64,000 nt of DNA from Paracoccus sp. IB05. GTDB lineage: Bacteria > Pseudomonadota > Alphaproteobacteria > Rhodobacterales > Rhodobacteraceae. Position 1 is the first letter of the stretch. Every line of letters begins with the position of its first letter. The notes under the pieces were generated by a model. That model saw only the letters and a list, made by a program, of their open reading frames with translations. It did no database searches and was not told where the DNA came from. Location of the stretch: positions 1 through 64,000 of the forward strand of contig NZ_JAEFCF010000008.1 in assembly GCF_016405985.1 (NCBI RefSeq), written 5' to 3'. Positions 32,290 through 54,379 of this stretch are shown here, in pieces. The position numbers were made by a program, and so were the translations under genes.

Positions 32290-32353
32290 GCCTCCGGCGG
32301 GAGTATTTAAGTCAAGAGGAAATCAAAGCCTCTTCCTCTTGACTTAAATACTC
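32290..32353 (-). repeat. Composite hairpin repeat, copy 1 (inverted, shortened)
   Basis: A perfect 21-bp stem (32301-32321 with 32333-32353) closes an 11-nt loop. The arm reads GAGTATTTAAGTCAAG and continues GAGGAA. The flank GCCTCCGGCGG (32290-32300) is the reverse complement of the right end of the other three copies, so this one is inverted relative to them. Its G/C hairpin modules are missing. It sits after tpiA and may also end transcription. Confidence 0.8.
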
Positions 32354-32438
32354 ATCTTCAGCCCGGCTGGCCGGAACGCGCCAGGACTGGTCGCCCGGAG
32401 AACAGTGGCCAGAGCTGCGGCGTGACAGATTTCATTCT

Positions 32439-33395
32439 ATGACAGGTTTCGCGCGCCCTGCCCCGCCTTCCGATCCGATCCCCGGTCAGCATTTGCCGGG
32501 GAACCGGCTTCTGTCCGGGCATCTGATCTGCATGATCTCTATGGTGGTCTGGGCGGCCGGGCTGCCGGCGGCAGAGTTTTTGATTCCGATCATGCCCTCG
32601 GACCAGCTGGGCGCGGTACGGATCGGCCTCGCGGCGCTGGTCCTGTTGCCGGTCTGGCTGCTGGCAGATGGGCCGCGCGCGATTTTGCGGGCGGACTGGC
32701 TGCGCGGGATCACGGTCGGGGCGCTGATCGGGATCGCGGCCTGGTGTCTGATCATGGGCCAGGCGGCGGGCGGGCCGGTGACGGCGGCGGTGATTACCGC
32801 TGCGATGCCGGTGGTGGCCATTGCGCTTGAAGTGCTGTTCGACGGGCGCCGGCTGAGCCTGCAACTCATTGCCGGAATTACGCTTTCCATGGCCGGCGGC
32901 CTGCTTGCCCTCGATTTCGGCGCCGGCGGCAGCAATGTGGCGCTTGGTGCGCTGTTTTGCTGCGGCTCGGTGCTGCTCTACACGCTTGGCTCACGGCTGA
33001 CGGTGACCAGCTTTCCAACCCTTTCCCTGATCGGGCGCACCGCGCTGACCATGGCGGGGGCAGCGATTTCCATGCTGATCATCGCCGGGGCCAATCTCGC
33101 CATGGGCGCGCCGCTGGCCGATCCTGGCCTCTGGGGGGTGCGCGAGGTGATCTCGCTCGGTCTTTTCGCCATAGGCGGGCTCGCCCTGTGTCAGCTTTTA
33201 TGGATCATCTCGATCAACAGGATCGGCATCGGCATGTCATCGCTGCACACCAATGCCTCGCCGTTTTACGTCATGCTGATCATGTTCCTCTGGCTTTCCG
33301 CGCCCTGGAACTGGCTCCAGGCCGGGGCGGCGGGGCTTGTCGCGCTTGGGGTGCTGGTGGCGCAGGGCGTCATCCCCCTGCCGCGCTTCCGTTAA
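32439..33395 (+). CDS. EamA/DMT-family permease
   Basis: The 318-residue protein has about ten membrane helices in two EamA repeats (roughly 28-155 and 168-310), the plan of drug/metabolite transporters that export amino acids, metabolites or drugs. The N-terminal 25 residues are cytoplasmic. It is convergent with the Lrp-type regulator gene, the stop codons overlapping by 4 bases (33392-33395). No substrate can be inferred. Confidence 0.85.
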   Translation: MTGFARPAPPSDPIPGQHLPGNRLLSGHLICMISMVVWAAGLPAAEFLIPIMPSDQLGAVRIGLAALVLLPVWLLADGPRAILRADWLRGITVGALIGIAAWCLIMGQAAGGPVTAAVITAAMPVVAIALEVLFDGRRLSLQLIAGITLSMAGGLLALDFGAGGSNVALGALFCCGSVLLYTLGSRLTVTSFPTLSLIGRTALTMAGAAISMLIIAGANLAMGAPLADPGLWGVREVISLGLFAIGGLALCQLLWIISINRIGIGMSSLHTNASPFYVMLIMFLWLSAPWNWLQAGAAGLVALGVLVAQGVIPLPRFR

Positions 33396-33853
33396 ACCGG
33401 AAGCACCGTCGTCGACTTGATTTCTTCCATGCTCAGAAGCGCGGTGACATTGTAAATCTTCACCTCGGAAATCAGCGCCTGATAGAATTCATCATAGGCA
33501 CGGGCGTTTTTCACACGGACCTTGAGGATGTAATCGATATCCCCCGCCAGCCGATGCGCCTCAAGCACTTCGGGGCGTTCGCGCAGCGCGTGGAGGAATT
33601 TGCGCTGCCAATCCGCCTCATGTTCCGAGGTGCGGATCAGCACGAAGAAACAGGCCTCTAGCCCCAGGGCCTCGGCATCGAGGATCACCGTCTGGCGCGA
33701 GATCACGCCCTGTTCTTTCATGCGCCGGATCCGGTTCCAGACCGGGGTTTTCGACGAGCCCACCTTGCGGGCGATCTCATCCAGCGACTGCTCTGCATCC
33801 TGTTGCAGTTCGGACAGGATTTTCCGGTCCAGATCGTCCAGCGCGGCTGCCAT
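33392..33853 (-). CDS. Lrp/AsnC-family transcriptional regulator next to the sulfite operon
   Basis: The 153-residue protein has an N-terminal winged helix (LDDLDRKILSELQQDAEQSL to VWNRIRRMKEQGVI) and a C-terminal RAM ligand domain (VLEAHRLAGDIDYILKVRV). I start at the ATG at 33853 with AGGGGA 8 bases upstream. It is divergent from cobA, the first gene of the assimilatory sulfite reduction operon, with 167 bases between them. This pairing recurs in Rhodobacteraceae, so it probably controls that operon in response to a sulfur amino acid such as cysteine; the ligand is inferred. Confidence 0.85.
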   Translation of the reverse strand: MAAALDDLDRKILSELQQDAEQSLDEIARKVGSSKTPVWNRIRRMKEQGVISRQTVILDAEALGLEACFFVLIRTSEHEADWQRKFLHALRERPEVLEAHRLAGDIDYILKVRVKNARAYDEFYQALISEVKIYNVTALLSMEEIKSTTVLPV

Positions 33854-34020
33854 TCCTGATTTCCCCTCTGACGCAGAACTGCGTTCCCAGAGGCCAGAGT
33901 ATCGGAACATTCTTCCTTATCTGCAAGGGGATCTGGCCGATTCAGAGGAAAAAGTCCTATATTGCTGCCAGTGCAAACCGGCCCCGCCGCCATACCTGCC
34001 CGAAAGCCAGGATCGAAGCC

Positions 34021-34794
34021 ATGTTGACAGCCAGCGCCCCCCTCAAGGATCTGCCGCCCGTGATCTTCGCGGGGGCTGGCCCGGGCGCGGCCGATCACCT
34101 GACGCTCGGCGTGCTGCGCGCGCTTGAGGCGGCCGAGGTGGTGATCCATGACCGTCTCGTCGGCGAAGAGGTAATGGCGCTGATCCCGGCCCATGTGCGC
34201 CGCATTGACGTTGGCAAAGAGGGCTTTGGCCCTTCGGTCGCGCAATCGACGATCAACCGGGTTCTGGTTGAAACCGCTCAGACCGGCGCGCGCATCGTCC
34301 GTCTCAAAGGCGGCGATCCGGGAATTTTCGCCCGTCTCGACGAAGAGATCGAGGCGCTGGAGGCAGCTGGCCTCAGCTTTCGCATCCTGCCCGGCCTCTC
34401 GACCGCGCCGGTTGCGGCGGCGGCCATTGGCCAGGCGCTGACAAAGCGGGGCCGCAATGCCAGCCTGCGCATTCTGACCGGCCATGACATGGAGGGTTTT
34501 GCCGAACTGGACTGGCGCGGTCTCGCCCGTGCCACTGAGGTTGCGGCGATCTATATGGGCAAGAAATCGGCCCGTTTCATCCAGGGCCGGCTGCTGATGC
34601 ATGGCGCAGGGCCGGAAACGCCGGTCACCCTGGTCGAGAACGCCTCGCGCGCAGATCAGCGGGTCCATGCCGGGACGCTTTCCTCGCTGCCCGCGCTGGC
34701 GCTTTGTTGCACCGGCCCCGCCATCATCCTTTTCGGCCTCGCGCCCCGCGCGGCCATTCCCGCCATGACCAGTCACGAGGAGGCCCGCGCATGA
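34021..34794 (+). CDS. cobA: Uroporphyrinogen-III C-methyltransferase (siroheme synthesis)
   Basis: The enzyme adds two SAM-derived methyl groups to uroporphyrinogen III to make precorrin-2, the start of siroheme, the cofactor of the sulfite reductase encoded downstream. The 257-residue protein has the family signatures GAGPGAADHLTLGVLRALE (18-36), RLKGGDPGIFARLDEE (93-108) and the GHDMEGF loop. It lacks the CysG N-terminal dehydrogenase/ferrochelatase module, so those steps need another protein. It is the first gene of a tightly packed operon, and its stop overlaps the next start (ATGA). Confidence 0.92.
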   Translation: MLTASAPLKDLPPVIFAGAGPGAADHLTLGVLRALEAAEVVIHDRLVGEEVMALIPAHVRRIDVGKEGFGPSVAQSTINRVLVETAQTGARIVRLKGGDPGIFARLDEEIEALEAAGLSFRILPGLSTAPVAAAAIGQALTKRGRNASLRILTGHDMEGFAELDWRGLARATEVAAIYMGKKSARFIQGRLLMHGAGPETPVTLVENASRADQRVHAGTLSSLPALALCCTGPAIILFGLAPRAAIPAMTSHEEARA

Positions 34795-35099
34795 GCCGCC
34801 GCTTTACCCCGAAAGTCGTCACCGCCAATCGCCTGCGCGAAGGGGATGTCGTCTATCTCACTGCCGATGACCGCTGGACGCTGGTCCATGCCGAGGCCGA
34901 GCTGATCGAAGACGAGGCCCATGCCCAGCTGCGGCTTCTCCATGCCAATGCGCAGGGGCGGCTGATCGTCGGCGCCTATCTGGCAGATGCGAAACCGGGC
35001 CCGAACGGCCCCGAACCCACCCATTTCCGTGAGGCCTTCCGCACCCGCGGCCCCTCGAACTATCACCACGGGAAACAGGCAGACCTCGATCATGTATGA
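34791..35099 (+). CDS. DUF2849 protein of the sulfite reduction operon
   Basis: A 102-residue cytoplasmic protein (MSRRFTPKVVTANRLREGDV and so on) of the DUF2849 family, found almost only between the methyltransferase and sulfite reductase genes of alphaproteobacteria. It overlaps cobA by 4 bases (ATGA) and cysI by 8 bases, so translation is coupled on both sides. It probably assists siroheme insertion or electron transfer, but this is not established. Confidence 0.85.
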   Translation: MSRRFTPKVVTANRLREGDVVYLTADDRWTLVHAEAELIEDEAHAQLRLLHANAQGRLIVGAYLADAKPGPNGPEPTHFREAFRTRGPSNYHHGKQADLDHV

Positions 35100-36762
35100 T
35101 TACACCGACTTCGATGAGCGTTTCGTCCGCGAGCGCGTGGCGCAGTTTTCGCAGCAGGTCGAACGCCGTCTCGATGGCAGCCTGACCGAGGAAGAGTTCC
35201 GGCCCTTGCGGCTGATGAACGGGCTTTATCTGCAACTCCATGCCTATATGCTGCGGGTCGCCATTCCCTATGGCACGCTGAATGCGCGTAAGATGCGCCA
35301 GCTGGCGAAGATCGGTGCGACCTGGGACAAGGGGTACGGCCACTGGACCACGCGGCAGAATATCCAGTTCAACTGGCCGAAACTGCCGGATATTCCTGCG
35401 ATCCTGACCGCGCTGGCCGATGTCGGCATGCATGCGATCCAGACGAGCGGAAATACTGTCCGCAACGTGACCGCCGACCATTTCGCGGGTGCGGCGGCTG
35501 ACGAGATCGCCGATCCCCGCGCCTATGCCGAACTGTTGCGCCAGTGGTCGACCGATCACCCGGAATTCCAGTTCCTGCCCCGGAAGTTCAAGATCGCCAT
35601 CACCGGCGCAACGCATGACCGCGCGGTGATCCGCGCGCATGACATTGGTCTGCAACTGGTGAAGAACGATCAGGGCGAGATCGGTTTCCGTGTGCTTGTG
35701 GGCGGCGGGCTTGGCCGCACGCCGCTGATCGGTATGGTGGTGCGGGAATTCCTGCCCGAGGCCGATCTGCTGCCTTATGTCGAAGCGGTCCTCAGCGTCT
35801 ATAACGTGCTGGGCCGGCGCGACAATAAATACAAGGCGCGTATCAAGATCACGCTGCATGAGACCGGCAAGGAAGAGATCACCCGGCTGGTGGAAGAACG
35901 GTTTGAAGAGCTGCGCCCGCTCTTTGGCGGCGCTGATCAGGCGCTGCTGGAAGATATTCAGGCCGCCTTTGCGCCCCCTTCCTTCCGCGATGCTCCGGTC
36001 ACCGCCTATGAGGATTTCTACAAATCCGATCCGGTGTTCCGGGCCTGGGCCGATACCAACCTCGCCGCCCATAAGAACGATCAATATGCGATCGTGACGA
36101 TCTCGGTAAAGGAACAGGGCAAGACGCCGGGCGACCAGACCTCGGACCAGATGGAGCTGATCGCGGATCTGGCCGAGACATTCGGCCATGACGATATCCG
36201 CATCAGCCATGAGCAGAATGTGATCCTGCCGCATGTCCATAAGGGCGACCTGCCGGCGCTTCATGCAGCCCTGGTCCAGGGCGGCATTGCCACTGCCAAT
36301 GTCGGGCTGATCTCGGATATCATCGCCTGCCCCGGCATGGATTACTGCGCGCTGGCGACCGCGCGCTCGATCCCGGTGGCGCAGGAAATTGCCATGCGGT
36401 TCAAAGAGCTCGACCTCGAACATGAGATCGGGCCGCTGAAGATCAAGATCTCGGGCTGCATCAATGCCTGCGGTCACCACCATGTCGGTCATATCGGCAT
36501 TCTCGGCCTCGACCGGGCGGGGGTCGAGAATTACCAGATCACCCTCGGTGGGTCTGGCGCCGAAGATGCTGCGATCGGCGACAAGACCGGCCCGGGCTTT
36601 GCCTATGACCAGGTGGTGCCGGCGGTGGAGCGGATCGTGCGCGCCTATCTGAGCGAGCGTGAAGGGCCGCAGGAAAGCTTCCTCGACGCCTTCCGTCGCC
36701 TCGGGATGGAGCCCTTCAAGGCCGCCCTTTATGAGAGCGGAGACGCGAAGGATGCCGCGTGA
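35092..36762 (+). CDS. cysI: Siroheme nitrite/sulfite reductase (assimilatory)
   Basis: It reduces sulfite to sulfide with six electrons, using a siroheme bridged to a [4Fe-4S] cluster. The 556-residue protein starts at the ATG at 35092 inside the end of the DUF2849 gene. Domains are ferredoxin-like half 1 (about 45-115), siroheme half 1 with TSGNTVRNVTADHFAG (about 120-135), ferredoxin-like half 2, and siroheme half 2. The cluster ligands are C-x5-C (ACPGMDYCALA, about 412-420) and C-x3-C (SGCINACGHHH, about 455-463). Context (cysH, fpr) favours sulfite over nitrite as substrate. Fpr downstream is the likely electron donor through ferredoxin. Confidence 0.92.
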   Translation: MYDYTDFDERFVRERVAQFSQQVERRLDGSLTEEEFRPLRLMNGLYLQLHAYMLRVAIPYGTLNARKMRQLAKIGATWDKGYGHWTTRQNIQFNWPKLPDIPAILTALADVGMHAIQTSGNTVRNVTADHFAGAAADEIADPRAYAELLRQWSTDHPEFQFLPRKFKIAITGATHDRAVIRAHDIGLQLVKNDQGEIGFRVLVGGGLGRTPLIGMVVREFLPEADLLPYVEAVLSVYNVLGRRDNKYKARIKITLHETGKEEITRLVEERFEELRPLFGGADQALLEDIQAAFAPPSFRDAPVTAYEDFYKSDPVFRAWADTNLAAHKNDQYAIVTISVKEQGKTPGDQTSDQMELIADLAETFGHDDIRISHEQNVILPHVHKGDLPALHAALVQGGIATANVGLISDIIACPGMDYCALATARSIPVAQEIAMRFKELDLEHEIGPLKIKISGCINACGHHHVGHIGILGLDRAGVENYQITLGGSGAEDAAIGDKTGPGFAYDQVVPAVERIVRAYLSEREGPQESFLDAFRRLGMEPFKAALYESGDAKDAA

Positions 36763-37501
36763 TCTGTGCGCCTATCCGGTTGCCGACCGGGTGGCCGCGC
36801 TGAACGCGCGCTACAAACACCATTCGGCCCATGATGTGCTGGAACATGCTTTGCAGGATGATGACCTGGGCCGGGTGGCCCTGGTCTCGTCTTTCGGGGC
36901 GGAATCGGTGGTGCTTTTGCATCTGGTGTCGCTGCTGGCGCCGGAAACCCCGGTGCTGTTCGTCGATACGCGGATGCTCTTCAAGGAAACGCTGGACTAT
37001 CAGCGCGAGCTGGCCGAGCGTCTCGATCTTTGTGACATCCGCACCATCCGCGCCAATCCGCGCCGGCTTCACTTTGAAGACCCGGATAATACATTGCATC
37101 TCTACAGCACGGATGCCTGCTGCAATGTGCGCAAGGTCGAGCCGCTGGAACGCGCGCTGAAACCGTTTGAGGGCTGGATCACCGGGCGGAAACGCTTTCA
37201 GAACTCGGATCGCGGCACGCTGGATTTCTTTGAGAATGAGGGCGATTTCCGCATCAAGGTCAATCCGCTGGCGCATTGGGGGCGCGAGGATCTGGAAGAC
37301 TATATCACCAATAACAACCTGCCGCGCCATCCGCTGGTCGCGAAAGGCTATCCGTCGATCGGTTGCGCGCCCTGCACCAGCCCGGTGAAGCCCGGCGAAG
37401 ACCCGCGCGCCGGGCGCTGGCGGGGCCAGCAGAAAACCGAATGCGGCATCCATTTCGCGGGCGGCAAGCCCGTGCGCAATACCAGCGAGAGCGCCGCATG
37501 A
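36752..37501 (+). CDS. cysH: Adenylylsulfate (APS) reductase, iron-sulfur type
   Basis: The 249-residue enzyme reduces activated sulfate to sulfite with thioredoxin. It has the CC...CxxC pattern of APS-specific members that carry a [4Fe-4S] cluster: TDACCNVRK (near 120), GCAPC (near 205), and the catalytic ECGIH near the end. PAPS-specific enzymes lack the CC and CxxC pairs. The nucleotide-binding SSFGAESVVLLHL is at about 47-59. It overlaps cysI by 11 bases. The sulfate-activating genes cysD/cysN are not in the window. Confidence 0.92.
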   Translation: MPRDLCAYPVADRVAALNARYKHHSAHDVLEHALQDDDLGRVALVSSFGAESVVLLHLVSLLAPETPVLFVDTRMLFKETLDYQRELAERLDLCDIRTIRANPRRLHFEDPDNTLHLYSTDACCNVRKVEPLERALKPFEGWITGRKRFQNSDRGTLDFFENEGDFRIKVNPLAHWGREDLEDYITNNNLPRHPLVAKGYPSIGCAPCTSPVKPGEDPRAGRWRGQQKTECGIHFAGGKPVRNTSESAA

Positions 37502-37507
37502 GCGGCG

Positions 37508-37552
37508 CCGATTTCTGCACAGAAATCGGTCCGGTTCCTGTACAGGAACCGG
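37508..37552 (+). promoter_or_regulatory. Two abutting 22-nt palindromes between cysH and the DUF934 gene
   Basis: Two inverted repeats lie side by side with one base between. The first (37508-37529) has arms CCGATTTCTG and CAGAAATCGG around CA. The second (37531-37552) is a perfect 22-bp palindrome with arms CCGGTTCCTG and CAGGAACCGG around TA. In RNA each would fold into a tight 10-bp hairpin. Their place, just after cysH and 39 bases before the next gene, suggests mRNA processing or partial termination, or a protein-binding site. A 29-codon frame (37498-37587) also spans them. Confidence 0.6.
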
Positions 37553-37590
37553 GCTCCCCGCCCGACCGACAGCAAAAAGAGGACTGAGAC

Positions 37591-37995
37591 ATGAGCATTA
37601 TTGTCACCGATGCCGGTTTCACCCCGGCCCCCGCCCGCGAGATCCCGGCTTTGGCCGAGCTGACCGCGACCGACATCGCCGTCGATCTGTCGAATACCGA
37701 CAGTCCCGAGGCACTGATCCCGCATCTTGACCGGCTCACCCTGATCCGGGTCGCCTTCCCGGCCTTTTCGGATGGCCGCGCCTTTACCATCGCGCGCAGG
37801 CTCCGGATGCTCGGCTACAAAGGGCAGCTGCTTGCACTCGGGCCCGTTATCTCCGATCAATATGCCATGTGCCGCCGGGTCGGCTTTGACGGGGTCGAGA
37901 TCCCGGACGAGCTCGCTCAACGTCAGCCGGAAGAGCAATGGAAATTCCGCGCCAACTGGATGGCGCATGATTACCAGGGCCGCCTGCGCGCCTGA
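37591..37995 (+). CDS. DUF934 protein of the sulfite reduction operon
   Basis: The 134-residue protein belongs to DUF934, a family nearly always beside cysH/cysI in proteobacteria. Typical segments are ALIPHLDRLTLIRVAFPAFS, DGRAFTIARRLRMLGY and the C-terminal QYAMCRRVGFDGVEIPDEL. It is soluble, and its function is unknown; a helper role in sulfite reduction is likely from context. It has its own AGAGGA ribosome binding site after the paired hairpins. Confidence 0.88.
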   Translation: MSIIVTDAGFTPAPAREIPALAELTATDIAVDLSNTDSPEALIPHLDRLTLIRVAFPAFSDGRAFTIARRLRMLGYKGQLLALGPVISDQYAMCRRVGFDGVEIPDELAQRQPEEQWKFRANWMAHDYQGRLRA

Positions 37996-38100
37996 TCCAT
38001 TGGCTGCGCGAAAATATGCCGCAGCGAGGCCCGGTTCCCCCGGCCCCGCCCGTGCCTTAAATGAGACCGCGCCCGGATGGCGCCCGAGACGGAGCCCGAG

Positions 38101-38922
38101 ATGACCGAGACCGCCGCAACCACTGAGCGCCCGGCAAAACCGCATCTGCCCGATGCTCAGACCGTCACCTCGGTCAGACACTGGACCGACCGGCTGTTTT
38201 CCTTCCGCGTCGCGCGGCCGCAATCGCTGCGCTTCCGTTCGGGCGAGTTTGTGATGATCGGGCTGATGGGCGAAAATGGCAAACCGCTTTTGCGCGCCTA
38301 TTCCATCGCCTCGCCCGCCTGGGATGAGGAGCTGGAATTCTATTCGATCAAAGTGCCCGATGGCCCGCTGACCTCGAAACTGCAGCATGTGAAGCCGGGC
38401 GATCAGATCATCCTTCGCCCGAAACCCGTTGGCACCCTGGTCCATGACGCGCTGCTGCCGGGCAAGCGTCTCTGGTTTCTTGCCACCGGCACCGGTTTCG
38501 CGCCTTTTGCCTCGCTGCTGCGCGAGCCGGAGACCTGGGAGAAATATGACCAGGTCATCATGATGCATACCTGCCGCGAGAAGGCCGAGCTGGAGTATGG
38601 CCGCGCGCTGATCGAAGGGCTGAAGGAAGACCCGCTGATCGGCGAGCTGATCGGCGACAAGCTCCTTTATTATCCGACCACCACCCGCGAAGAGTCGCAA
38701 AATATGGGCCGGATCACCGATAACCTCGCCTCGGGCAAGGTCTTTGAGGATCTCGGCCTGCCGAAGATCAACCCGGAAGAAGACCGCGCCATGGTCTGTG
38801 GCTCGCTCGCGTTCAACGTCGATGTGAAGGCGACACTGGAAAGCTTCGGACTTGAGGAAGGCGCCAATTCCGACCCGAAGCAATTCGTGGTCGAGAAGGC
38901 TTTTGTGGGCGACGGCATCTGA
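38101..38922 (+). CDS. fpr: Ferredoxin--NADP+ reductase
   Basis: The 273-residue FAD enzyme passes electrons between NADPH and ferredoxin or flavodoxin. FAD-binding RAYSIASPAWDEELEFYSI is at about 64-82, the NADP-binding GTGFAPFASLLREPE near 124-138, and the C-terminus ends EKAFVGDGI, the form that stacks on FAD in bacterial subclass I enzymes. The start is the ATG at 38101 with GGAG upstream. As the last gene of the sulfite operon it probably feeds CysI, and a terminator follows. Confidence 0.93.
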   Translation: MTETAATTERPAKPHLPDAQTVTSVRHWTDRLFSFRVARPQSLRFRSGEFVMIGLMGENGKPLLRAYSIASPAWDEELEFYSIKVPDGPLTSKLQHVKPGDQIILRPKPVGTLVHDALLPGKRLWFLATGTGFAPFASLLREPETWEKYDQVIMMHTCREKAELEYGRALIEGLKEDPLIGELIGDKLLYYPTTTREESQNMGRITDNLASGKVFEDLGLPKINPEEDRAMVCGSLAFNVDVKATLESFGLEEGANSDPKQFVVEKAFVGDGI

Positions 38923-38945
38923 CACCTCTGACAAGCGAAGACGCA

Positions 38946-38974
38946 AAGGCCGCAGGGGTGCCCCCCTGCGGCCT
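38946..38974 (+). terminator. Terminator of the sulfite reduction operon
   Basis: AGGCCGCAGGGG pairs with CCCCTGCGGCCT around a short loop, about 25 bases after the fpr stop. The following tract (TCTGCATC) is only weakly T-rich. Confidence 0.65.
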
Positions 38975-39022
38975 TCTGCATCTGGTCTCTGTCGCCGCTC
39001 TGAGCACAGGCCGGCCAATTAA

Positions 39023-39058
39023 AAAAACGGCTGCAGGATCCTCCCCGCAGCCGTTTTC
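39023..39058 (-). terminator. Terminator of the Ala-rich protein gene
   Basis: AAAACGGCTGC pairs with GCAGCCGTTTT around the loop. On the minus strand the hairpin is followed by a long T run. It lies 41 bases after the minus-strand stop at 39099. Confidence 0.8.
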
Positions 39059-39098
39059 TTGTCTCACGCCTCCGGCCTGAACCGGAAGGGCGCTGCGA

Positions 39099-40640: not shown

Positions 40641-40664
40641 CCGGTGATCGACGTCCTGATATGT

Positions 40665-40727: not shown

Positions 40728-40825
40728 GGGGGCGCTGCCCCCGTCCCGTACCGGGACTCCCCCGGAGTATTTGTATCAAGAGGAATGCGGTATTTCCTCT
40801 TGACCTAAATACTCCCGCCGGAGGC
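40728..40825 (+). repeat. Composite hairpin repeat, copy 2
   Basis: It has three modules in order: a GGGGGC/GCCCCC hairpin (40728-40742), a GTCCCG/CGGGAC hairpin (40743-40757), and a long imperfect stem (arms about 40765-40785 and 40794-40814, with TCAAGAGGAA as in copy 1). It closes with CGCCGGAGGC. It sits between infC and valS, past the infC terminator. Confidence 0.8.
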
Positions 40826-44046: not shown

Positions 44047-44063
44047 CCTCAGCTATTTCAGCA

Positions 44064-44245: not shown

Positions 44246-46471
44246 TTAGGGCGATGCGCCTTGCCGGAACAAGCGGTCAAGCCGATCCATAGCTTCCACG
44301 CCGTGAGAACTGGTTTTCTCCGACCCCGAGGACCAGATCCTGTCACGGGCAGAGAATGTGGCCTCGATCTGCGCGCCCTGCCTCCGCAGCGCAATCGCAC
44401 CGGTCCGGGACAGCAGATGCTGGTCGATCAGCGGGCAATTGGGCGGTGGGTGTTCCGCCCGCGCGTTGAGGATCACGAGGTCAAAGCCGGCACAGGCCGC
44501 CGCGAGCTGTGAAAGCCCGGCCTTACCGCTTATCGCGACGCCCTTTCGCCCAGAAAACTCAAAGGTTTTCGCGTCACGGGTGCCAGTGAATCCCGGGCGC
44601 AGTGCGGCGGTTTTTTGCGACGCGAGATCACCATCGCTTTCCAGCCAGTTGCTTGCCGAAAAGCCGCCCCCCGTGGCCGTTGACAGCGCCCTGCCCTCGG
44701 GCCCCATCACCCCCACCAGCCGCCCGTCAGCGGAGATCAACAACTCAGGCCGGTCCGCCAGCGGCCAGAGCATGATGCCCAAAGCGATCAGCCCTACCCC
44801 GGCAAGCCGCGCCCTTCCCGGCCAGGCGATCAGCCAGAGCCCCCCCCAGCTGATCACCGGCAGCGCCAGCCAATGCGGCGCCGGGATCGCGGTCACTGAT
44901 CCGTCCAGCCCCGCAACCCAGGCGGCAACCCAGAGGATCCATTCAGAGGCCTTGCCCATGACCCAGAGCGGCAGAGCCTCCAGCCCGACCGGCGCCAGCA
45001 GGAAGGCCAGAACCCCCATCGGCATGATGGCGATCCCCATGGCCGGCGCGGTCAGGATATTGGCCATGAGCCCGTAATCGGCAAACCGGTTGAAATGCGC
45101 CGCCGCATAGGGCGCGGTGGCGAAACCGCCGATCACCGAGCTCATGACCACTGTGATCAGCACAAGCTGCCAGCGCGCCAGGCGGCCCCGTTGCAGCCAG
45201 CGATCCATCGCCTGAAACCCGGCAATCAGCGAGATGGTCGCGGCCATCGACATCTGGAAACCGGGCGCGAGCAGGCTTTCGGGTTTCAGCGCCAGAAGTA
45301 CCGCGCCGGCAATCGCGGCACTGCGGATCGTCATGGCCCTGCGGTTCATCAAAATCGCCAGCAGCATCACCAGCGTCATGACAAAGGCACGTTCGGTTGC
45401 GACATTGGCGCCGGAGAGCTGCAGATAGAACCAGGCGACAAAGATCGAGACCAGGGCCGCGAGCTTCTTCGCGTTCACCCGCAGCGCGAGCCAGGGGAAA
45501 CAGGCGATCCCCCCCCGCAACAGCGCGAAAACAAAGGCCGTCAGGCAAACGAGGTTCATCCCCGAAATCGCAAGGATATGCGCGAGTGAGGAATCGCGCA
45601 GATCCTCGACCGTCTTCTGGCTGATGCCCGAGCGGTCGCCGGTCATCGCGCCCGCGGCAAAGGCCCCCGCCTCGCCCGGAATATGGGCGCGGATGCCACT
45701 GGAAAACCAGGCGCGGAGCCGGCCGATCCATTCCTCTCCGTCGCGTGGCGGCTCCAGCAGCAGGACCGGGGTCTGGCTGTAGCCAACCGCGCCGAGCCCC
45801 TGAAAAAACGCCATGCGGCGGAAGTCAAAGCCGCCGGGCTCTGCCGCATCCTGAGGGGCCGAAAGATGCCCGGTCAGGATCACCGTTTCGCCGGCGGCGG
45901 GGCTATGGCCATAGTCGTTTCCGTGCAGCGCAACCCTTACGCGATGCGGCACCCGCGCGGGATCGGTGCGCTCCAGCACAACCTGGTCCAGCGTGATCCT
46001 GACCGCATCCGAGGCGGAAGTGTCGATCTCGACCACCCGCCCCTCGACCGGGCCGTAATAGCCGAAATCAAGCATCGGGGCGGCGATCATATGCGCGCGC
46101 AGCCCCGCCGCCAGCAGGCCCAGAGACAGCGCCAGCACGGCGCCTCCGATGCTGCGAAAGGGAAAAGGCGCAAGCTGGGCCGCGACTGCCGCCAGTACCG
46201 CCAGGGCGACAAGCGCGCCATAGACCAGCGCTCCCGGCTCGGTTTCCAGAGCGAACCACAGCCCGATACCGCTGCCAAAAAGGATCACCGCCAGCGGCAG
46301 AAGATGCCCGCGCGCGTCCTCCAGCGCGATCAGCGGCCCGATCAGCGCCCGGATCGGCCCCCGGCAGAACCTGGCGAGGTGACGCCAGAGCTGACGTGAC
46401 AATGCAGCCGGATGATCCGCCCCGCCGGGCACCGCCTCGCCTGCGCCTGTGGCGGCAATGCTGTCAGCCAC
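44246..46471 (-). CDS. comEC: ComEC/Rec2-family DNA uptake channel
   Basis: ComEC carries single-stranded DNA across the inner membrane during natural transformation. The 741-residue protein has N-terminal helices, a periplasmic OB-like (DUF4131) region (about 125-225), and the competence domain with SLAHILAISGMNLVCLTAFVF (the conserved H-x-LAISG motif, near 305) and many helices to about 600. The remaining C-terminus (about 620-741) is a much reduced hydrolase-like part without the metallo-beta-lactamase HxHxDH motif, the usual short form in alphaproteobacteria. I start at a GTG at 46471 (GGGGGAAGGG upstream); the frame extends to a TTG at 46510. It is divergent from gltX. Confidence 0.88.
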   Translation of the reverse strand: MADSIAATGAGEAVPGGADHPAALSRQLWRHLARFCRGPIRALIGPLIALEDARGHLLPLAVILFGSGIGLWFALETEPGALVYGALVALAVLAAVAAQLAPFPFRSIGGAVLALSLGLLAAGLRAHMIAAPMLDFGYYGPVEGRVVEIDTSASDAVRITLDQVVLERTDPARVPHRVRVALHGNDYGHSPAAGETVILTGHLSAPQDAAEPGGFDFRRMAFFQGLGAVGYSQTPVLLLEPPRDGEEWIGRLRAWFSSGIRAHIPGEAGAFAAGAMTGDRSGISQKTVEDLRDSSLAHILAISGMNLVCLTAFVFALLRGGIACFPWLALRVNAKKLAALVSIFVAWFYLQLSGANVATERAFVMTLVMLLAILMNRRAMTIRSAAIAGAVLLALKPESLLAPGFQMSMAATISLIAGFQAMDRWLQRGRLARWQLVLITVVMSSVIGGFATAPYAAAHFNRFADYGLMANILTAPAMGIAIMPMGVLAFLLAPVGLEALPLWVMGKASEWILWVAAWVAGLDGSVTAIPAPHWLALPVISWGGLWLIAWPGRARLAGVGLIALGIMLWPLADRPELLISADGRLVGVMGPEGRALSTATGGGFSASNWLESDGDLASQKTAALRPGFTGTRDAKTFEFSGRKGVAISGKAGLSQLAAACAGFDLVILNARAEHPPPNCPLIDQHLLSRTGAIALRRQGAQIEATFSARDRIWSSGSEKTSSHGVEAMDRLDRLFRQGASP

Positions 46472-46655
46472 CTTGCCCTTCCCCCTCGACCGCGCATAAA
46501 TGCAGCGCAACTGCGTCTGTCTTTGCCGCAGTCACCGATCTTCCTCCGGGAAAGCAGTCAACCGCTCCCCGACCCGCCAGAAATGCCCGCCATATAACAG
46601 CCAGCCATCGCGGCGATCATCCTCCGCTATGGTTTCCGAAAGGTTAACACCCGCC

Positions 46656-48068: not shown

Positions 48069-48174
48069 TCTGCGACGGGCCCCGGGCCAGGTCTACGCTC
48101 CGCAAGGAGCAGCGAAGAAGCCACGAAACCGCTGCGCTTACGCGGGCGGTTTGCCACACGGGGAACCTGGGAAA

Positions 48175-49464
48175 ATGTCTGACAGAAAAGCGACACTGAC
48201 GCTCGACGGCAAGGAGTTCGACCTGCCGGTTATGAAACCGGTACTTGGCCCCGACGTGCTGGATATCCGCAAGCTCTATGGGCAGGCTGATGTCTTTACC
48301 TATGACCCCGGCTTCACCTCGACCGCGTCCTGCGAAAGCGCGATCACCTATATCGACGGCGATCTGGGCGAACTGCTGTATCGCGGCTATCCGATTGAAC
48401 AGCTGGCCGAGAAATCCAGCCATCTCGAGACCTGTTTCCTGCTGATGTATGGTGAGCTGCCGACCGCGGCGCAGCTGGCCGACTTCAACACCCGCGTGAC
48501 CCGCCATACGATGGTTCACGAGCAAATGATGAACTTTTTCCGTGGCTTCCGCCGCGATGCTCATCCGATGGCGACCATGGTGGGTGTGGTTGGCGCGATG
48601 TCGGCCTTCTATCATGACAGCCTTGATATCACCGATGAATGGCACCGCGAGGTCGCCTCGATCCGGATGATCGCAAAGCTGCCGACCATTGCGGCGATGG
48701 CCTATAAGTATTCGGTCGGCCAGCCCTTCGTCTATCCGAAGAATTCGCTCAGCTATGCCGGCAATTTCCTGCATATGTGCTTCTCGGTTCCGGCCGAGGA
48801 TTATGTCGTCAATCCGGTGCTTGAAAAGGCCATGGACCGCATCATGATGCTCCATGCCGATCACGAGCAGAACGCCTCGACCTCGACCGTGCGTCTGGCC
48901 GGCTCTTCGGGCGCCAACCCCTTTGCCTGTATCGCGGCCGGCATCGCCTGCCTCTGGGGGCCGGCACATGGCGGCGCCAACCAGGCCTGTCTCGAGATGC
49001 TGAAAGAAATCGGCACTGTCGAGAGGATCCCGGAATTCATCGCCAAGGCGAAAGACAAGAATTCCGGCTTCCGCCTGATGGGCTTTGGCCACCGGGTCTA
49101 TAAGAATTTCGACCCGCGGGCCAAGGTGATGAAGGAATCGGCGGACGAGGTGCTCGAGCTGCTGGGCGTCCATAACAACCCGCTGCTGCAGGTCGCAAAA
49201 GAGCTGGAGCGCATCGCGCTGGAAGACGAATATTTCGTCTCGAAGAAACTCTATCCGAATGTCGATTTCTATTCCGGCATCATCCTCGAAGCGATGGGCT
49301 TTCCGACCTCGATGTTCACCCCGATCTTCGCGATTTCGCGCACGGTCGGCTGGATCTCGCAGTGGAAAGAGATGATCTCTGACCCGACCGGCAAGATCGG
49401 CCGCCCGCGCCAGCTCTATGTCGGCCCGAAGAAACGCGACTATACCGAGCTGCGGTCGCGCTGA
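48175..49464 (+). CDS. gltA: Citrate synthase (type II, hexameric)
   Basis: It condenses oxaloacetate and acetyl-CoA at the entry of the TCA cycle. The 429-residue protein starts at the ATG at 48175. The catalytic triad is visible: His in [11 protein letters not shown] (near 265), His in [14 protein letters not shown] (near 306) and Asp in [14 protein letters not shown] (near 363). The N-terminal beta domain ([17 protein letters not shown]) is that of type II, NADH-sensitive enzymes. It follows gltX by 106 bases on the same strand. Confidence 0.97.
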
Positions 49465-49482
49465 TCTGTCAGCATTTTGCGG

Positions 49483-49510
49483 AAAGGCGGCTCCTCTGCG
49501 GGCCGCCTTT
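49483..49510 (+). terminator. Terminator of gltA
   Basis: AAAGGCGGC pairs with GCCGCCTTT around a loop of about ten bases, 18 bases after the gltA stop, followed by TCTCTTT. Confidence 0.8.
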
Positions 49511-49534
49511 CTCTTTGGCCGATGTGAAACAGAA

Positions 49535-49649
49535 GGGGGGCCAGCCCCCCTCGGCTCTGTCGAGCCTCACCCCCCGGGATATTTAGCGACAGAAAATATG
49601 CACGGCTCTGCTGGTTTATTTTCTGTCTTTAAATATCCCCGCCGGAGGC
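49535..49649 (+). repeat. Composite hairpin repeat, copy 3
   Basis: The same three-module plan as copies 2 and 4: GGGGGG-CCAG-CCCCCC type hairpin (49535-49550), GGCTC/GAGCC hairpin, then a long stem with arms GGATATTTAGCGACAGAAAA and TTTTCTGTCTTTAAATATCC. It ends GCCGGAGGC. Stem arms share GACAGAAAA with copy 4 but differ from copies 1 and 2. Confidence 0.8.
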
Positions 49650-49731
49650 ATCCCGCCAAGGGCGGGACAGGCCCTTGCCGGTCAGGGGATTTGGCGTCAG
49701 GTAAGAGGGGCGCTGCAAGAAAGCCAGATAC

Positions 49732-50454
49732 GTGCCGCAAAGACTGATCCTGATTGATCTCGCCCGCAGCCTTGCGCTTTTGTGCATGGTTATTTTTCAT
49801 TTCACCTGGGATCTGGGCATGTTCGGCCTGATCCCGCCCGGCACCGCCTTTACCGGATTTTTCTGGTATTTCGCGCGTCTCACTGCCGGGAGTTTCATCT
49901 TCCTTGCCGGTGTCGGGCTTTACATGTCGCATGCGCGGGCGATCCGCTGGCGCGCCTTTCTCCGCCGCCTTGTAAAGATCGGCGCAGCGGCGGCTCTGGT
50001 TTCCGTCGCGAGTTATTTCGCAATGCCGGAGGTCTGGATCTTTTACGGCATCCTGCATTCCATCGCGGTTTCCTCAATCCTCGGACTGCTCTTTCTGCGC
50101 CTGCTCCCGACCGCCCTGCTTGCCATCGCGGCCCTGGTCTTTGCCCTGCCCTGGTATTGGTCGCATCCGGCATTCGGCGGGGTGCTGGTCTGGACAGGGC
50201 TTTCCGGCGAGGTACCCGTCACCGCCGATTTCGAGCCGCTGTTTCCCTGGTTCGCGCCCTTCCTCGCCGGTATGGCCACGGCGCGGATGTTCGGGGATCT
50301 GAATCTGTGGCAGCGGCTGTCCCTGCCGCCCGCGCGGGTGCTGAACCGTCTGGCCTGGCCTGGCCGCCATTCGCTCGCGATCTATCTGATCCATCAGCCT
50401 TTGCTGATCGGAGCGCTGGCCTCACTGGTCTGGCTGATCTCAGTCGCCAGCTGA
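49732..50454 (+). CDS. Heparan-alpha-glucosaminide acetyltransferase-like membrane protein (DUF1624)
   Basis: The 240-residue protein has about seven to eight membrane helices and the DUF1624/acyltransferase-like opening LIDLARSLALLCMVIFHFTW (Asp and His near the first helix). YGILHSIAVSSILGL and a closing HSLAIYLIHQPLLIG match the same superfamily. Members acetylate sugars or other groups across the membrane, but the bacterial substrates are mostly unknown. The GTG at 49732 is the only good start, with a weak ribosome binding site. Its 3' end overlaps that of the convergent DUF2235 gene by 61 bases. Confidence 0.8.
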   Translation: MPQRLILIDLARSLALLCMVIFHFTWDLGMFGLIPPGTAFTGFFWYFARLTAGSFIFLAGVGLYMSHARAIRWRAFLRRLVKIGAAAALVSVASYFAMPEVWIFYGILHSIAVSSILGLLFLRLLPTALLAIAALVFALPWYWSHPAFGGVLVWTGLSGEVPVTADFEPLFPWFAPFLAGMATARMFGDLNLWQRLSLPPARVLNRLAWPGRHSLAIYLIHQPLLIGALASLVWLISVAS

Positions 50455-51551
50455 TCCCCCGCCCCTTGCCGCGCCAGATGCCAGCGCAGCCGTTCCGTCT
50501 CCGGCACGCTTTCATGCAGCCGCTCGCTGGGGTCACGCCCGATCACACGCCGCCTGCGATAGAGGAAGGCCGCGCCAAGGCCACGCCAGGTGCCGGCCAT
50601 CGGCGCGGCGGGGTCACAGGGAAACCGCTTGCGCCAGCCATGCGGCAGATCAAGCCCCGCCTGGACCGCGCGATCCAGCATCCAGACCAGCGGGATATTT
50701 GACAAAGGCCGCGCTGCCGCAAAAGCCCCCAGATGGCCGCCGATATCGCCATGCGCGCCGCGAAACCAGACCTGTTCGACATGGGTTCCGCCGCCCGGAT
50801 TGCCCTGCCAGAGCACCGGCTCAAAGACCACGCGTGTCTCGTCCAGCGCCAGCGCCTGGAGCGCGAAATCCAGGTCCTCCACCGGATGCGGGTCGTGGAA
50901 GGCATAGCGCCCCTCGGTCAGCATCCACAAAAGCGGAAAGCGCAGGCCAAGCGCCTTGACCGTGTCCCAGACCCCAATCATCCGGATCGGCGCCCGCGCA
51001 TGGCAGGAGGCCTGGCGGAAGGCCCTGAGACCGTCGTCATTGCCGCGCCGCTGATACCAGCGCCAGGCGAGGTGCAGATTGCGCTCGGTCGCCGCCTCAT
51101 GACGCAAAAGCCCCACTTTCGCGATCACCCCGGCAAGGCTGCGCACTGCGAATGCGCCGCGCGAATAGCCGAAGAGGAAGATCCGGTCGCCCTCGCGGTA
51201 ATGGCTGGCGAGATGGCCATAGGCGCGCAGGATCTGTTCCTCGAGCCCCCGCCCCTCGATGACATCCATGATGCGCTTCCAGCCGCGCCAGGGAATGCCC
51301 TCGTCATAGTAAAGCGACCGACCCGCCTGGGCCTTGCCGGTCGAGAGGAGCAGAAAGACCCTTCCGGCATTGGTGCGTTCGCCCTGGCGCAGTGAGGCCA
51401 TGGTGCCGTCAAGGATCACCACATGATCCACCCGGCGCCGCGCAAAGCCTGGGGCTGCGGGGCTCGCAGGCTCCACCTCGGCGCGCGGGCGCGGCCGGAA
51501 AAAGCGCGTGAGGAAAGCACGCAGGCCTATGATGCTGTCCTTTCCGGGCAA
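50394..51551 (-). CDS. DUF2235 alpha/beta-hydrolase (Tle1-like fold)
   Basis: The 385-residue protein has the DUF2235 pattern: an early VVILDGTMASL strand, the nucleophile elbow FGYSRGAFAVRSLAG (near 125), VWDTVKALG, and HGDIGGHLG near the end, supplying Ser, Asp and His of a hydrolase triad. The same fold occurs in Tle1 phospholipase effectors of type VI secretion, but here there is no immunity gene or secretion gene, and a free-standing cytoplasmic hydrolase is more likely. The usual first-strand D-G-T-x-N reads DGTMAS. The TTG at 51551 opens the frame, but the exact start is unsure. Confidence 0.8.
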   Translation of the reverse strand: MPGKDSIIGLRAFLTRFFRPRPRAEVEPASPAAPGFARRRVDHVVILDGTMASLRQGERTNAGRVFLLLSTGKAQAGRSLYYDEGIPWRGWKRIMDVIEGRGLEEQILRAYGHLASHYREGDRIFLFGYSRGAFAVRSLAGVIAKVGLLRHEAATERNLHLAWRWYQRRGNDDGLRAFRQASCHARAPIRMIGVWDTVKALGLRFPLLWMLTEGRYAFHDPHPVEDLDFALQALALDETRVVFEPVLWQGNPGGGTHVEQVWFRGAHGDIGGHLGAFAAARPLSNIPLVWMLDRAVQAGLDLPHGWRKRFPCDPAAPMAGTWRGLGAAFLYRRRRVIGRDPSERLHESVPETERLRWHLARQGAGDQLATEISQTSEASAPISKG

Positions 51552-51670
51552 TCCCTTTCGGGTGGCCCTGACGGGCCTGTGTCCTGGGAAAGACTAGCCC
51601 CGCCGCAGGTTTTGTCCAGCGGCGGGGCGCGCAGAAGGTGCGGAAATCACGTCAGATTGTCAGCGAAGGC

Positions 51671-52816
51671 TCAGATCGCAAGGGACAGGACAGTCGCCAT
51701 CTGCAGTTCGCCAAAACCGTTGAACCGGCTGTTCGTCACCACCGAATAGGACCCCATGCCATGCAGCACGACGAAATCGCCTTCCTCGGCATCAACCGGG
51801 AAAGCCATCTCGCCCGGCAGACGGTCGACCGAATCGCAGGTCGGGCCAAAGGTGATGCGCGGGCTCGGATCGCCCTTCCGCAGCACCCCTTCCGGCGAAA
51901 TCACCTGAAGCCGGTCGATCATACCGATCTGCGGCATTTCATTCAGCGAGCCATAGACCCCGTCATTGAGGAAGACATGGGCATCGTCACGGATCGCCTT
52001 GATGCGGGCGACCAGGGTGAAAGCATCACCGCAAAGCGCGCGGCCCGGCTCACAGACAAGCGCCGGACGGCCCTCGCCGAACGCCTCATCAGCGGTGCGG
52101 CCGATAGCCGCGAAGATCGCGTCATAGTCGGGCATCACTGCCGAAAGGCGATGATTCGGGAAACCACCGCCGACATTGAGACGCGCGATCTTCACACCGG
52201 CCTCGGACGCAATTTCAGCCGCTGTGCGGATATAGGTCGCCCAGGCTTCCGGATCGGTGCATTGGGTGCCCGGGTGGAAGGTCAGCGAGGGGATATAACC
52301 CGCCCCGGCCACGGTTTTCAGCAGGTCCACCGCCAGCTCGGCCGTCGCGCCGAATTTCGCGCCGAAATTATAGGCGGCACCGCCGACCGGCAGCTTGAAC
52401 CGGACCGAGATTTCGCAGCTATCCGCCGGCACCAGCGCGATCAGCTTGGCCAGTTCAGAGCGCGAATCGACGCTGTAGCTTTTGACGTTTTTGGCGACCG
52501 CATGCGCGATCTCGGCGCGCGAGCGGACCGGATTGTGATAATGGATCGCCGCATCCGGCACGAGATCGCGGATCAGGTCGATTTCAAAAGGCGAGGCACA
52601 GTCAAACCCGCGGATCCCGGCGGCCGCCAGGTTTTCCACCATCTCTTCGCCCGGGTTCGATTTCACCGCATAGGTGACCAGCCCGGGGAAGCCCTGGAGA
52701 AAGCGTCGCGCCGCGGCCTGAGCCACGCTGGGCGCGAAAAAAAGGACCGGGTTTTCAGGCTGATGCAGCCGGATGAATTCGGTCGGATTGTTGAAGATTG
52801 TCCGTGAAAGTCCCAT
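51671..52816 (-). CDS. Type III PLP ornithine/lysine decarboxylase
   Basis: This alanine-racemase-fold decarboxylase makes putrescine from ornithine (or cadaverine from lysine). The 381-residue protein starts at the ATG at 52816 with AAGGGA upstream. The PLP lysine is K52 (VTYAVKSNP). The substrate His/Gly region is LTFHPGTQC and ARLNVGGGFPNH, CEPGRALCGD follows, and the catalytic Cys/Asp lie in FGPTCDSVDRL near 325. It probably works as a dimer. It is divergent from an Lrp-family regulator gene and is likely controlled by it. It fits with the polyamine-type uptake and breakdown genes further right. Confidence 0.9.
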   Translation of the reverse strand: MGLSRTIFNNPTEFIRLHQPENPVLFFAPSVAQAAARRFLQGFPGLVTYAVKSNPGEEMVENLAAAGIRGFDCASPFEIDLIRDLVPDAAIHYHNPVRSRAEIAHAVAKNVKSYSVDSRSELAKLIALVPADSCEISVRFKLPVGGAAYNFGAKFGATAELAVDLLKTVAGAGYIPSLTFHPGTQCTDPEAWATYIRTAAEIASEAGVKIARLNVGGGFPNHRLSAVMPDYDAIFAAIGRTADEAFGEGRPALVCEPGRALCGDAFTLVARIKAIRDDAHVFLNDGVYGSLNEMPQIGMIDRLQVISPEGVLRKGDPSPRITFGPTCDSVDRLPGEMAFPVDAEEGDFVVLHGMGSYSVVTNSRFNGFGELQMATVLSLAI

Positions 52817-52992
52817 CGGCGTTTCCCTTTCAGCCAACAAGACGCTTCGCCCTTCCCCTGCATTCCGGGTCGGGCACCTGCGTGGTTTAAAGAAACCAGG
52901 CCAGGTGCGTATGAGCCGCCCTTTTCCTGCCAGAAGGATGCTGCATATGTGTGACAATCTCACCGAACAAAACTATAGAAATGACTGAAATC

Positions 52993-53009
52993 ATCGTTAT
53001 TATGACGAT
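52993..53009. promoter_or_regulatory. Candidate operator between the decarboxylase and its Lrp-type regulator
   Basis: An inverted repeat ATCGT-N7-ACGAT lies 17 bases before the regulator start, in an A/T-rich stretch of the 210-base divergent region. Lrp-family proteins often bind such sites near their own start. It is a by-eye call. Confidence 0.4.
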
Positions 53010-53026
53010 ACCGGGAGACAAACTGC

Positions 53027-53458
53027 ATGGATGACCTCGACAGAAGCCTGATCGGCCTTCTCAGCGCCGATGCGCGGATCTCGGTGGCGACACTGGCGCG
53101 GCGTCTGAAAGTGGCGCGTTCGACAATCCAGGCCAGGCTTGAGCGGCTGGAAAACACAGGAATCATAGCGGGTTACACGCTGAAACTGGGCGAGGCCGCA
53201 CGCGAAGGGCGGCTTCGGGCTTCGGTGCTGGTGACGATCGAGCCGCGCGGTCAGGCCGCGATTCTCACCCGGCTGAAATCGATCCATGAGGTCGAGAAGG
53301 TCTATACGACCTCGGGCCGGTTCGATCTTTTGCTGCAGATCTCCTGCCCCAATACGCAGATCCTCGATCAGGTGCTGGATCAGATCGGCGCGATGACAGG
53401 GGTGAAAAGCTCGGAAAGCCTGATCCACCTCTCGACCCGCATCGATCGCGCGGTGTAA
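53027..53458 (+). CDS. Lrp/AsnC-family regulator
   Basis: The 143-residue protein has the winged helix at 1-60 (MDDLDRSLIGLLSADARISV, ARSTIQARLERLENTGIIAG) and the RAM domain at about 65-140 (VEKVYTTSGRFDLLLQISC). It is shorter and distinct in sequence from the Lrp-type protein at 33392. Its divergent neighbour is the ornithine/lysine decarboxylase, which is the probable target; the ligand may be ornithine, lysine or a polyamine precursor. Confidence 0.88.
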   Translation: MDDLDRSLIGLLSADARISVATLARRLKVARSTIQARLERLENTGIIAGYTLKLGEAAREGRLRASVLVTIEPRGQAAILTRLKSIHEVEKVYTTSGRFDLLLQISCPNTQILDQVLDQIGAMTGVKSSESLIHLSTRIDRAV

Positions 53459-53485
53459 GGCGGGCGCTGAACCAGGGGGCCTGTC

Positions 53486-54265
53486 ATGCTGTCATATCAA
53501 CACGCTTTTCACGCCGGCAATCTGGCCGATGTGCAAAAACACGCGCTGCTGGCCTGGGTGCTGGATTACATGGTGCAAAAGGACAAGCCGGTTTCCTATA
53601 TCGAGACCCATGCCGGGCGCGGCCTCTACCGGCTCTCCGGCCCCGAAGCGCAGAAAACCGGCGAGGCGGCACAGGGGATCGGGCGGCTGGCAGATGCCTT
53701 TCCTGAAGGCCATCCCTATCCCGAGCGGCTGGAGGAAACCCGTGCCATGTTCGGGACCGATGCCTATCCCGGCTCGCCGCTGATCGCGACGCTTGGGCTG
53801 CGCGAGACCGATAAGCTGCATCTGGCAGAGTTGCATCCCCAGGAAAATGCGGCGCTGAAAGACGTGCTCGGCTCCTGGGGCGCGCATATCCGCAAGGAAG
53901 ACGGCTTTAATTTCGCGCTGTCCCTGACGCCGCCGACGCCGCGGCGCGGGCTGATGCTGGTCGATCCGCCCTATGAGGTGAAATCCGACTACGACCATAT
54001 CCCTAAATTCTTCGCGCAAGTCTCGCGGAAATGGAATGTGGGGGTCCTGATGCTCTGGTATCCGATCTTGCGCGACGCGCCGCATGTGCCGATGCTCAGG
54101 ACGCTGGCGGCGCAGTTCCCCGCGGCCCTGCGCCACGAGCTGCGCTTTCCCCCCGCCCGCGAAGGCCATCGGATGATCGGGACGGGCATGTTTATCGTGA
54201 ACCCGCCTTTCGGCATCGGGACCGAGACCGCGCGCCTTGAACGCATCTTCGCCGACCTGGGCTGA
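53486..54265 (+). CDS. rlmJ: 23S rRNA (adenine2030-N6)-methyltransferase
   Basis: RlmJ methylates A2030 of 23S rRNA with SAM. The 259-residue protein has the family start MLSYQHAFHAGNLADVQKH, the SAM-loop YIETHAGRGLYRL (about 38-50) and the catalytic DPPYE (near 158-162). The conserved WYPILRD and GTGMFIVNPPFG follow. It is 27 bases after the Lrp-type gene but unrelated in function. A composite hairpin repeat begins 9 bases after the stop. Confidence 0.93.
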   Translation: MLSYQHAFHAGNLADVQKHALLAWVLDYMVQKDKPVSYIETHAGRGLYRLSGPEAQKTGEAAQGIGRLADAFPEGHPYPERLEETRAMFGTDAYPGSPLIATLGLRETDKLHLAELHPQENAALKDVLGSWGAHIRKEDGFNFALSLTPPTPRRGLMLVDPPYEVKSDYDHIPKFFAQVSRKWNVGVLMLWYPILRDAPHVPMLRTLAAQFPAALRHELRFPPAREGHRMIGTGMFIVNPPFGIGTETARLERIFADLG

Positions 54266-54274
54266 ACGCGCGGA

Positions 54275-54379
54275 GGGGGCCAGCCCCCTCGCGGCTTTGC
54301 CGCTCACCCCCGGGATATTTAAGGACAGAAAATGAGAGGCAGTGCTGTTTTCTGTCTCTTAAATATCCCCGCCGGAGGC
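54275..54379 (+). repeat. Composite hairpin repeat, copy 4
   Basis: Modules in order: GGGGG-CCAG-CCCCC hairpin, GCGGC-TTT-GCCGC hairpin, then a long stem with arms GGATATTTAAGGACAGAAAA and TTTTCTGTCTCTTAAATATC. It ends GCCGGAGGC. It is the most complete copy, and close to copy 3. Confidence 0.8.

Follow-up and report, generated by a model that had tools for sequence, protein, structure and literature searches.

The window analysed here, a stretch of 64,000 nucleotides (positions 1 to 64,000 of contig NZ_JAEFCF010000008.1 of Paracoccus sp. IB05), contains four copies of a modular hairpin repeat, each located just after a gene. Behind these copies lies a large interspersed family, and neither the copies nor their two arm types are peculiar to the window. 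The repeat is built of units in which a hairpin head is followed by a class mark, the letters TATTT and a ten-base tail. Near-uniform tails linked to the mark occur in single and paired units, in sense and antisense ones and in those inside genes, and they have been changed in place between sister species. We therefore favour, at about even odds, a DNA tag recognised by a putative trans-acting factor; the hairpin attached to it may have transcription termination as a second role. Mark-linked, uniform tails that change in place are not what a terminator alone, or a transposon alone, would predict.

Organisation of the repeat unit

The genome that carries the window is Pseudogemmobacter-like (5.29 Mb, 108 contigs). 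A unit reads, in order, head, class mark (GA or AG), TATTT, three to four free bases and the ten-base tail, the mark sitting about ten bases from the tail to which it is tied. The head varies: it can be one or two G/C hairpins with CCCCCGG or a similar sequence at the end, CCTCCGGCGGG, CGCTCCGCGGGG or almost nothing. The modules recognised in a preliminary description of the window were found as described, but the long stem that it took for part of a single element is formed by two units facing each other: a single arm and its head make up the unit, which can also stand alone. The two-arm hairpin was rejected as the sole unit because of these single units.

A search of the genome for the strict double core gave 33 copies, and none for the reversed pattern, which argues against chance. 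The 18-mer CCTCCGGCGGGRRTATTT has 105 copies at no more than one mismatch, 101 of them exact, and when the head is ignored there are 104 AG-class units (TATTTN{2,5}TCARGRGGAA) and 133 GA-class units (TATTTN{1,5}GACAGAAAAT), each reversed control giving 0. These numbers contradict the possibility that the genome holds no further copies. A covariance model built from 32 copies of this genome, the check proposed in the preliminary description, likewise found more of them, with 118 matches at E ≤ 0.01 and 50 of these at 77 bits or more (150 of 3585 candidates were scored); many of the matches below 77 bits are the opposite strand of elements already matched. No Rfam family matched the repeat at gathering score, the window yielding only a tRNA.

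Of 200 distinct units, 199 have a mark that matches the class of their tail (103 GA, 96 AG). These units, to which the counts of context given below are confined, were fetched by motif, and repeats from overlapping loci were removed by a sequence key. In the loci of this genome chosen by motif (505 kb in total, counting overlaps), TATTT precedes 172 of 180 distinct tails, and a one-letter variant of it precedes seven of the remaining eight. Regarding arrangement, 122 of the 200 units are in pairs with tails inward, 2 form a pair with heads inward and 76 are single. A separate list of paired elements contains one artefact of an alignment row, and among the 39 rows that it enters as halves some have an imperfect partner arm. 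Heads-inward inverted pairs with CCTCCGGCGGG-type heads, at loci L208-L210, L231, L235 and L171, mirror the arrangement of the window copies.

The two arms of the stem change together, as had been proposed. Across the 32 copies, 97.4% of cells pair (84.1% when shuffled), and two-sided changes occupy 134 cells against 41.3 in shuffled alignments, none of 500 shuffles scoring as high, in a test that is favoured by the derivation of the structure from the alignment under test. Sliding the structure along the alignment lowers pairing to at most 56%. In the variable hairpin, both sides change in all four scored pairs.

Tails are changed in place at orthologous sites

Of 31 full elements in P. bohemicus, 23 are covered by a single colinear match that runs across an element of the present genome, three match one flank and five are without counterpart among the loci fetched from it. 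At 18 orthologous paired GA sites the flanks and hairpins align and the tail differs on 36 of 36 arms: the present genome has GACAGAAAAT, and P. bohemicus has GACAGATGAA on 35 arms and GACAGAGGAA on one. At five orthologous AG sites, 9 of 10 arms are identical. In P. hezensis the tail differs on all 16 arms at eight orthologous sites.

A second comparison used 400 kb of P. bohemicus, in which 21 units of the present genome fall inside single matches. All 11 GA units, 10 of them unpaired, have the other GA tail there; among the 10 AG units six are identical, two vary within the AG form, one is off consensus and one is of the GA class. At locus L313 the two genomes align through head, mark, TATTT and free bases, with a single mismatch in the stretch shown, and part company at the tail. 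The free bases beside the tail are identical to those of P. bohemicus on 14 of 35 arms (8.3 expected, p = 0.010; one GA arm of the 36 was not scored) and to those of P. hezensis on 9 of 16 arms (3.7 expected, p = 0.0017). An rlmJ tree is compatible with more than one order of the three genomes, so that the tail may have changed in either direction.

Tails differ between genomes

The head motif GCCTCCGGCGGGNNTATTT was found in 107 of 149 Rhodobacteraceae genomes, one per genus, with a control of 0 throughout. The 18-mer CCTCCGGCGGGRRTATTT occurs in 3 of 289 genomes of a class-wide draw, all three from the same family, and in 0 of 285 genomes outside it. The family of repeats seems to be without a name: six stretches of its conserved sequence had no match in the open-access papers searched, no title or abstract opening among those listed for repeats, termination or uptake in this group describes it, and a description elsewhere is possible.

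Tails differ from genome to genome, also between genera. Within a class, a single tail is shared by nearly every copy in the Pseudogemmobacter genomes and in several further genera. The two GA tails are near-exclusive genome-wide: GACAGAAAAT is found 133 times in the present genome, 0 times in P. bohemicus, once in P. hezensis, 115 times in P. humi, 9 times in Rhodobacter sp. SGA-6-6 and 0 times in Tabrizicola, and GACAGATGAA 5, 127, 61, 0, 33 and 0 times, respectively. The five copies of this foreign tail in the present genome all lie on forward strands. Among fetched loci, genome G093 has AGCAAAAGATG after GA at 10 of 10; G063 has ACACAT.. after GA at 9 of 9 and CAATAAGAAA after AG at 4 of 4; G092 has ACCCAA(A/G)GAA after GA at 6 of 6, its AG tail being looser. 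Tabrizicola oligotrophica, with four full elements, has mainly CCAGTATGAAAG. P. humi (G151; 28 full elements) combines GACAGAAAAT with a third class, GGTATTT with the tail TCAGGRTGAA; this class (mark GG, CCGGGGTATTT) makes up 15 of its 28 full elements, and no AG mark is present at their left ends.

Position relative to genes

Units adjoin stop codons in either orientation. Of the 76 single units, 42 are in tandem with the genes (28 sense, 14 antisense), 23 are convergent and 7 divergent, three are in genes and one is at the edge of a fetched stretch, according to a home-made gene caller that misses some genes (for example, 49732-50454). Where a head faces the stop codon, TATTT lies at a median of 41 bases past the stop for the CCTCCGGCGGG head and 54 for the CCCCCGG head. 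At a few tandem sites the tail was seen by eye to coincide with the ribosome-binding site or the start of the following gene, but this is not general.

These distances, the excess of sense over antisense among single tandem units and the two-sided changes in the variable hairpin all fit a serious rival explanation, even if an unlikely one: a 3'-end signal acting at the RNA level, whose hairpins and tail would be read in the transcript by an RNA-binding protein, an RNase or a small RNA, the tail co-evolving. However, the same tail is present in antisense, convergent and divergent units, and in antisense orientation inside xdhA and cobN, and single units need no partner arm.

Mobility and origin

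The three in-gene units are in frame and have an exact tail, in xdhB (sense), xdhA (antisense) and cobN (antisense). At the cobN unit the linker is longer than in Haematobacter, Paracoccus, Gemmobacter and Rhodovulum, and at the xdhA unit the protein is longer than in three relatives, both comparisons being with plasmid relatives. Four of five relatives have a long, variable linker in xdhB, so that an insertion there is less clear. Rickettsia palindromic elements are palindromic repeats that also lie in frame inside protein genes; here, unlike in that system, the in-gene copies are only 3 of the 200 distinct units. The three units suggest mobility in the past only. The preliminary description had proposed a mobile or RNA-active interspersed element, and its interspersed family with fixed ends and covarying stems, amounting to more than terminators, stands, but ongoing mobility is not supported. 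Orthologous, colinear sites hold 23 of the 31 full elements of P. bohemicus, which does not favour a recent burst of insertion. Nor is mobilisation by a REP-associated tyrosine transposase (RAYT; REP, repetitive extragenic palindromic): the domain Y1_Tnp was not found at E ≤ 0.001 in the present genome or in any of 18 motif-rich relatives, in a search whose control was positive in 5 of 14 known genomes and which included several drafts.

Several sites differ by more than their tails. Two P. bohemicus elements 5.8 kb apart (L259 and L260) each match one flank of a single element of the present genome (L029), and at L183, L200 and L315 the comparison shows extra DNA between the flanks, breakpoints of rearrangements or indels coinciding with units. 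As for a plasmid or phage origin, the copy-4 element had two partial matches in 72,556 plasmid records and no phage match, a test weakened by the dialects; a crude scan of two 50-kb plasmid stretches found no units.

The possibility of a mobile repeat of the type of REP elements and their hairpin-forming doublets (REPIN), with a putative non-RAYT transposase and lineage-specific sequence classes, has to be weighed here, and we regard it as quite unlikely. Like REP and REPIN elements (PMC3116915, PMC3733652, as far as the parts of these papers at hand go), the family joins a hairpin to a short conserved tag, has two or more classes per genome, and occurs as singlets and inverted doublets, mainly extragenic, with occasional in-frame copies; the indels and rearrangements at several unit sites are in keeping with this. 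The tag at the end of the REP hairpin is GTAG or CGTC according to the same portion of PMC3733652, which also mentions CGTC-type REP families without transposase association, so that the missing RAYT is compatible with a REP-like origin, and which contains no occurrence of Rhodobacter or Paracoccus. In contrast, no GTAG or CGTC tag was seen here, the conserved letters being CCGG(GA/AG)TATTT and the tail, and no RAYT was found in the 19 genomes. Moreover, orthologous sites are kept while the GA tails change in place, which is not what transposition does.

Terminators and gene conversion

A separate classical terminator is rarer at unit-bearing gene ends (sense 8/44, antisense 2/28, paired 16/82) than at ends without a unit (44/101), although the test masks the unit and a 45-base head, and the search space so lost may cause part of the depletion. 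The same trend was obtained at two further energy limits. Intrinsic terminators are hairpins followed by a T-rich stretch just past genes; in TATTT, four letters of five are T. The hairpin end of the unit may also act as a gene-end terminator, and such a role would explain why units adjoin stop codons.

That the units are ordinary intrinsic terminators of the Rhodobacteraceae, the tail being incidental, is nevertheless improbable. Their position after genes, the hairpin and TATTT, the depletion of classical terminators and the sites common to sister species are as expected of terminators, and the preliminary description itself would have given way to orthologous terminators fixed at the same genes in all relatives. 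Sites are indeed shared between sister species, with classical terminators rarer there; orthologous terminators are insufficient because the tails differ between genomes and have changed in place. An ordinary terminator has no need for a fixed, genome-specific ten-base tail past its T stretch, for the linkage of mark and tail or for a genome-wide, near-exclusive change of tail, and units occur in either orientation: among the 42 single tandem units, 14 have the wrong orientation for a terminator, and three units are found within genes. Gene conversion that made dispersed copies evolve in concert would account for tails uniform within genomes and for a site (L288) that changed class and kept its hairpin. 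It is highly improbable, as each site keeps its own loops and variable hairpins and, in part, its own free bases next to the tail, and single units share no sequence beyond the tail.

Comparison with DNA uptake sequences

The DNA uptake sequences (DUS) of Neisseriaceae form species dialects around a common core, two of which can coexist in a genome; inverted pairs are associated with terminators and some copies are in genes, and copies of a genome's own dialect number at least 943 (PMC3630211, in the part consulted). The present family resembles them in being a short genome-wide motif with species dialects around a common core, coexisting dialects, inverted terminator-linked pairs and some in-gene copies. 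It differs from them in its number (about 240 copies, from 104 + 133 units), in being mostly intergenic and in its fusion to hairpin heads. A role in uptake would follow by analogy only. The family is analogous both to uptake-sequence dialects and to REP elements, and is established as neither.

The four copies in the window

Inspection of the sequence bore out the coordinates and modules of the four copies. In copies 2-4 a G-run..C-run hairpin and then a variable one precede the long stem, which opens with CCGG(AG/GA)TATTT and closes with AAATA(CT/TC)CCCGCCGGAGGC; copy 1 is inverted and without the two hairpins. There are two stem types, with arms TCAAGAGGAA in copies 1 and 2 and GACAGAAAA(T or C) in copies 3 and 4. 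The preceding genes were confirmed by NCBIfam (tpiA, infC and gltA) and by Pfam (rlmJ), and classical terminators are visible by eye ahead of copies 2 and 3.

Copy 1 (32290-32353, minus strand), after tpiA, is made of two facing AG-class units whose cores, TATTT-AAG-TCAAGAGGAA, are at 32304-32321 on the plus strand and 32333-32350 on the minus strand; a CCTCCGGCGGG head adjoins tpiA and the other head is reduced to GATG. Copy 2 (40728-40825, plus strand), between infC and valS, starts with the G5..C5 hairpin (40728-40742) and the variable, compensated hairpin (40743-40757), both on the plus strand, followed by two facing AG-class cores at 40768-40785 (plus) and 40794-40811 (minus), the right head being CCTCCGGCGGG on the minus strand. 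Copy 3 (49535-49649, plus strand), between gltA and an HGSNAT-family gene, has two hairpins and two facing GA-class units with cores at 49580-49597 (plus) and 49618-49635 (minus). Copy 4 (54275-54379, plus strand), between rlmJ and a terB-like gene, has the same composition, with GA-class cores at 54316-54333 (plus) and 54347-54365 (minus), and an orthologous element is present in P. bohemicus.

Elsewhere in the window there is an 86-base direct repeat (2886-2971 and 10016-10101, 86% identical). A tRNA gene (10082-10165, minus strand) overlaps its second copy with its 3' end, and the two copies are possibly the attachment sites of an integrated 7-kb segment. A 21-base sequence is present at 17496-17546 in three perfect copies with 15-base spacing. 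A ComEC/Rec2-like competence protein is encoded at 44246-46510 on the minus strand, which is relevant if the tags concern DNA uptake; proteins of this kind are common in the class.

A proposed tag read by a putative factor

In the favoured reading, mark, TATTT and tail would constitute a tag bound at the DNA level by a putative sequence-specific factor, and each class may have a factor of its own. Through selection or molecular drive this factor would keep the tags uniform and, when its specificity changes, rewrite them. The hairpin end may additionally serve as a gene-end terminator, and the in-gene copies suggest that units were inserted in the past. The existence of the factor, its action on DNA and the rewriting by drive or selection are all steps that we infer.

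Several observations weigh against a tag of this kind. No factor was found, and no co-occurrence search was made for one. The searched head motif is missing from 42 of the 149 family genomes. The dialects have exceptions: genome G010 has several different tails in five fetched loci, G044 two kinds in three, and Rhodobacter sp. SGA-6-6 carries both GA tails (GACAGATGAA 33, GACAGAAAAT 9) and others. AG tails are less pure, being exact in 73 of 96. L288, an AG site that is GA in P. bohemicus with its hairpin kept, is poorly explained by point mutation; the free bases retain a partial memory of the site; and 15 further units, which match P. bohemicus on one side only or with gaps, are uninformative on tails. 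The 5.3 Mb of the genome hold about 240 copies, far fewer than the DUS counts in the available part of PMC3630211. Finally, a role in RNA would accommodate the sense excess (28 vs 14) and the compensated hairpins just as well, and the depletion of classical terminators may in part reflect search space lost to masking.

In a wider and more tentative proposal, the Rhodobacteraceae would possess undescribed, independently evolved, species-specific DNA tags on gene-end hairpins, in two or three classes per genome, each with its own putative reader protein. Such tags could form a self-recognition code, akin to uptake-sequence dialects, that marks a cell's own DNA for uptake, recombination or chromosome organisation, with dialects switching between sister species. 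The in-place change of tags at dozens of sites points to a putative trans-acting factor, and the near-exclusive tails make the target of that factor directly testable.

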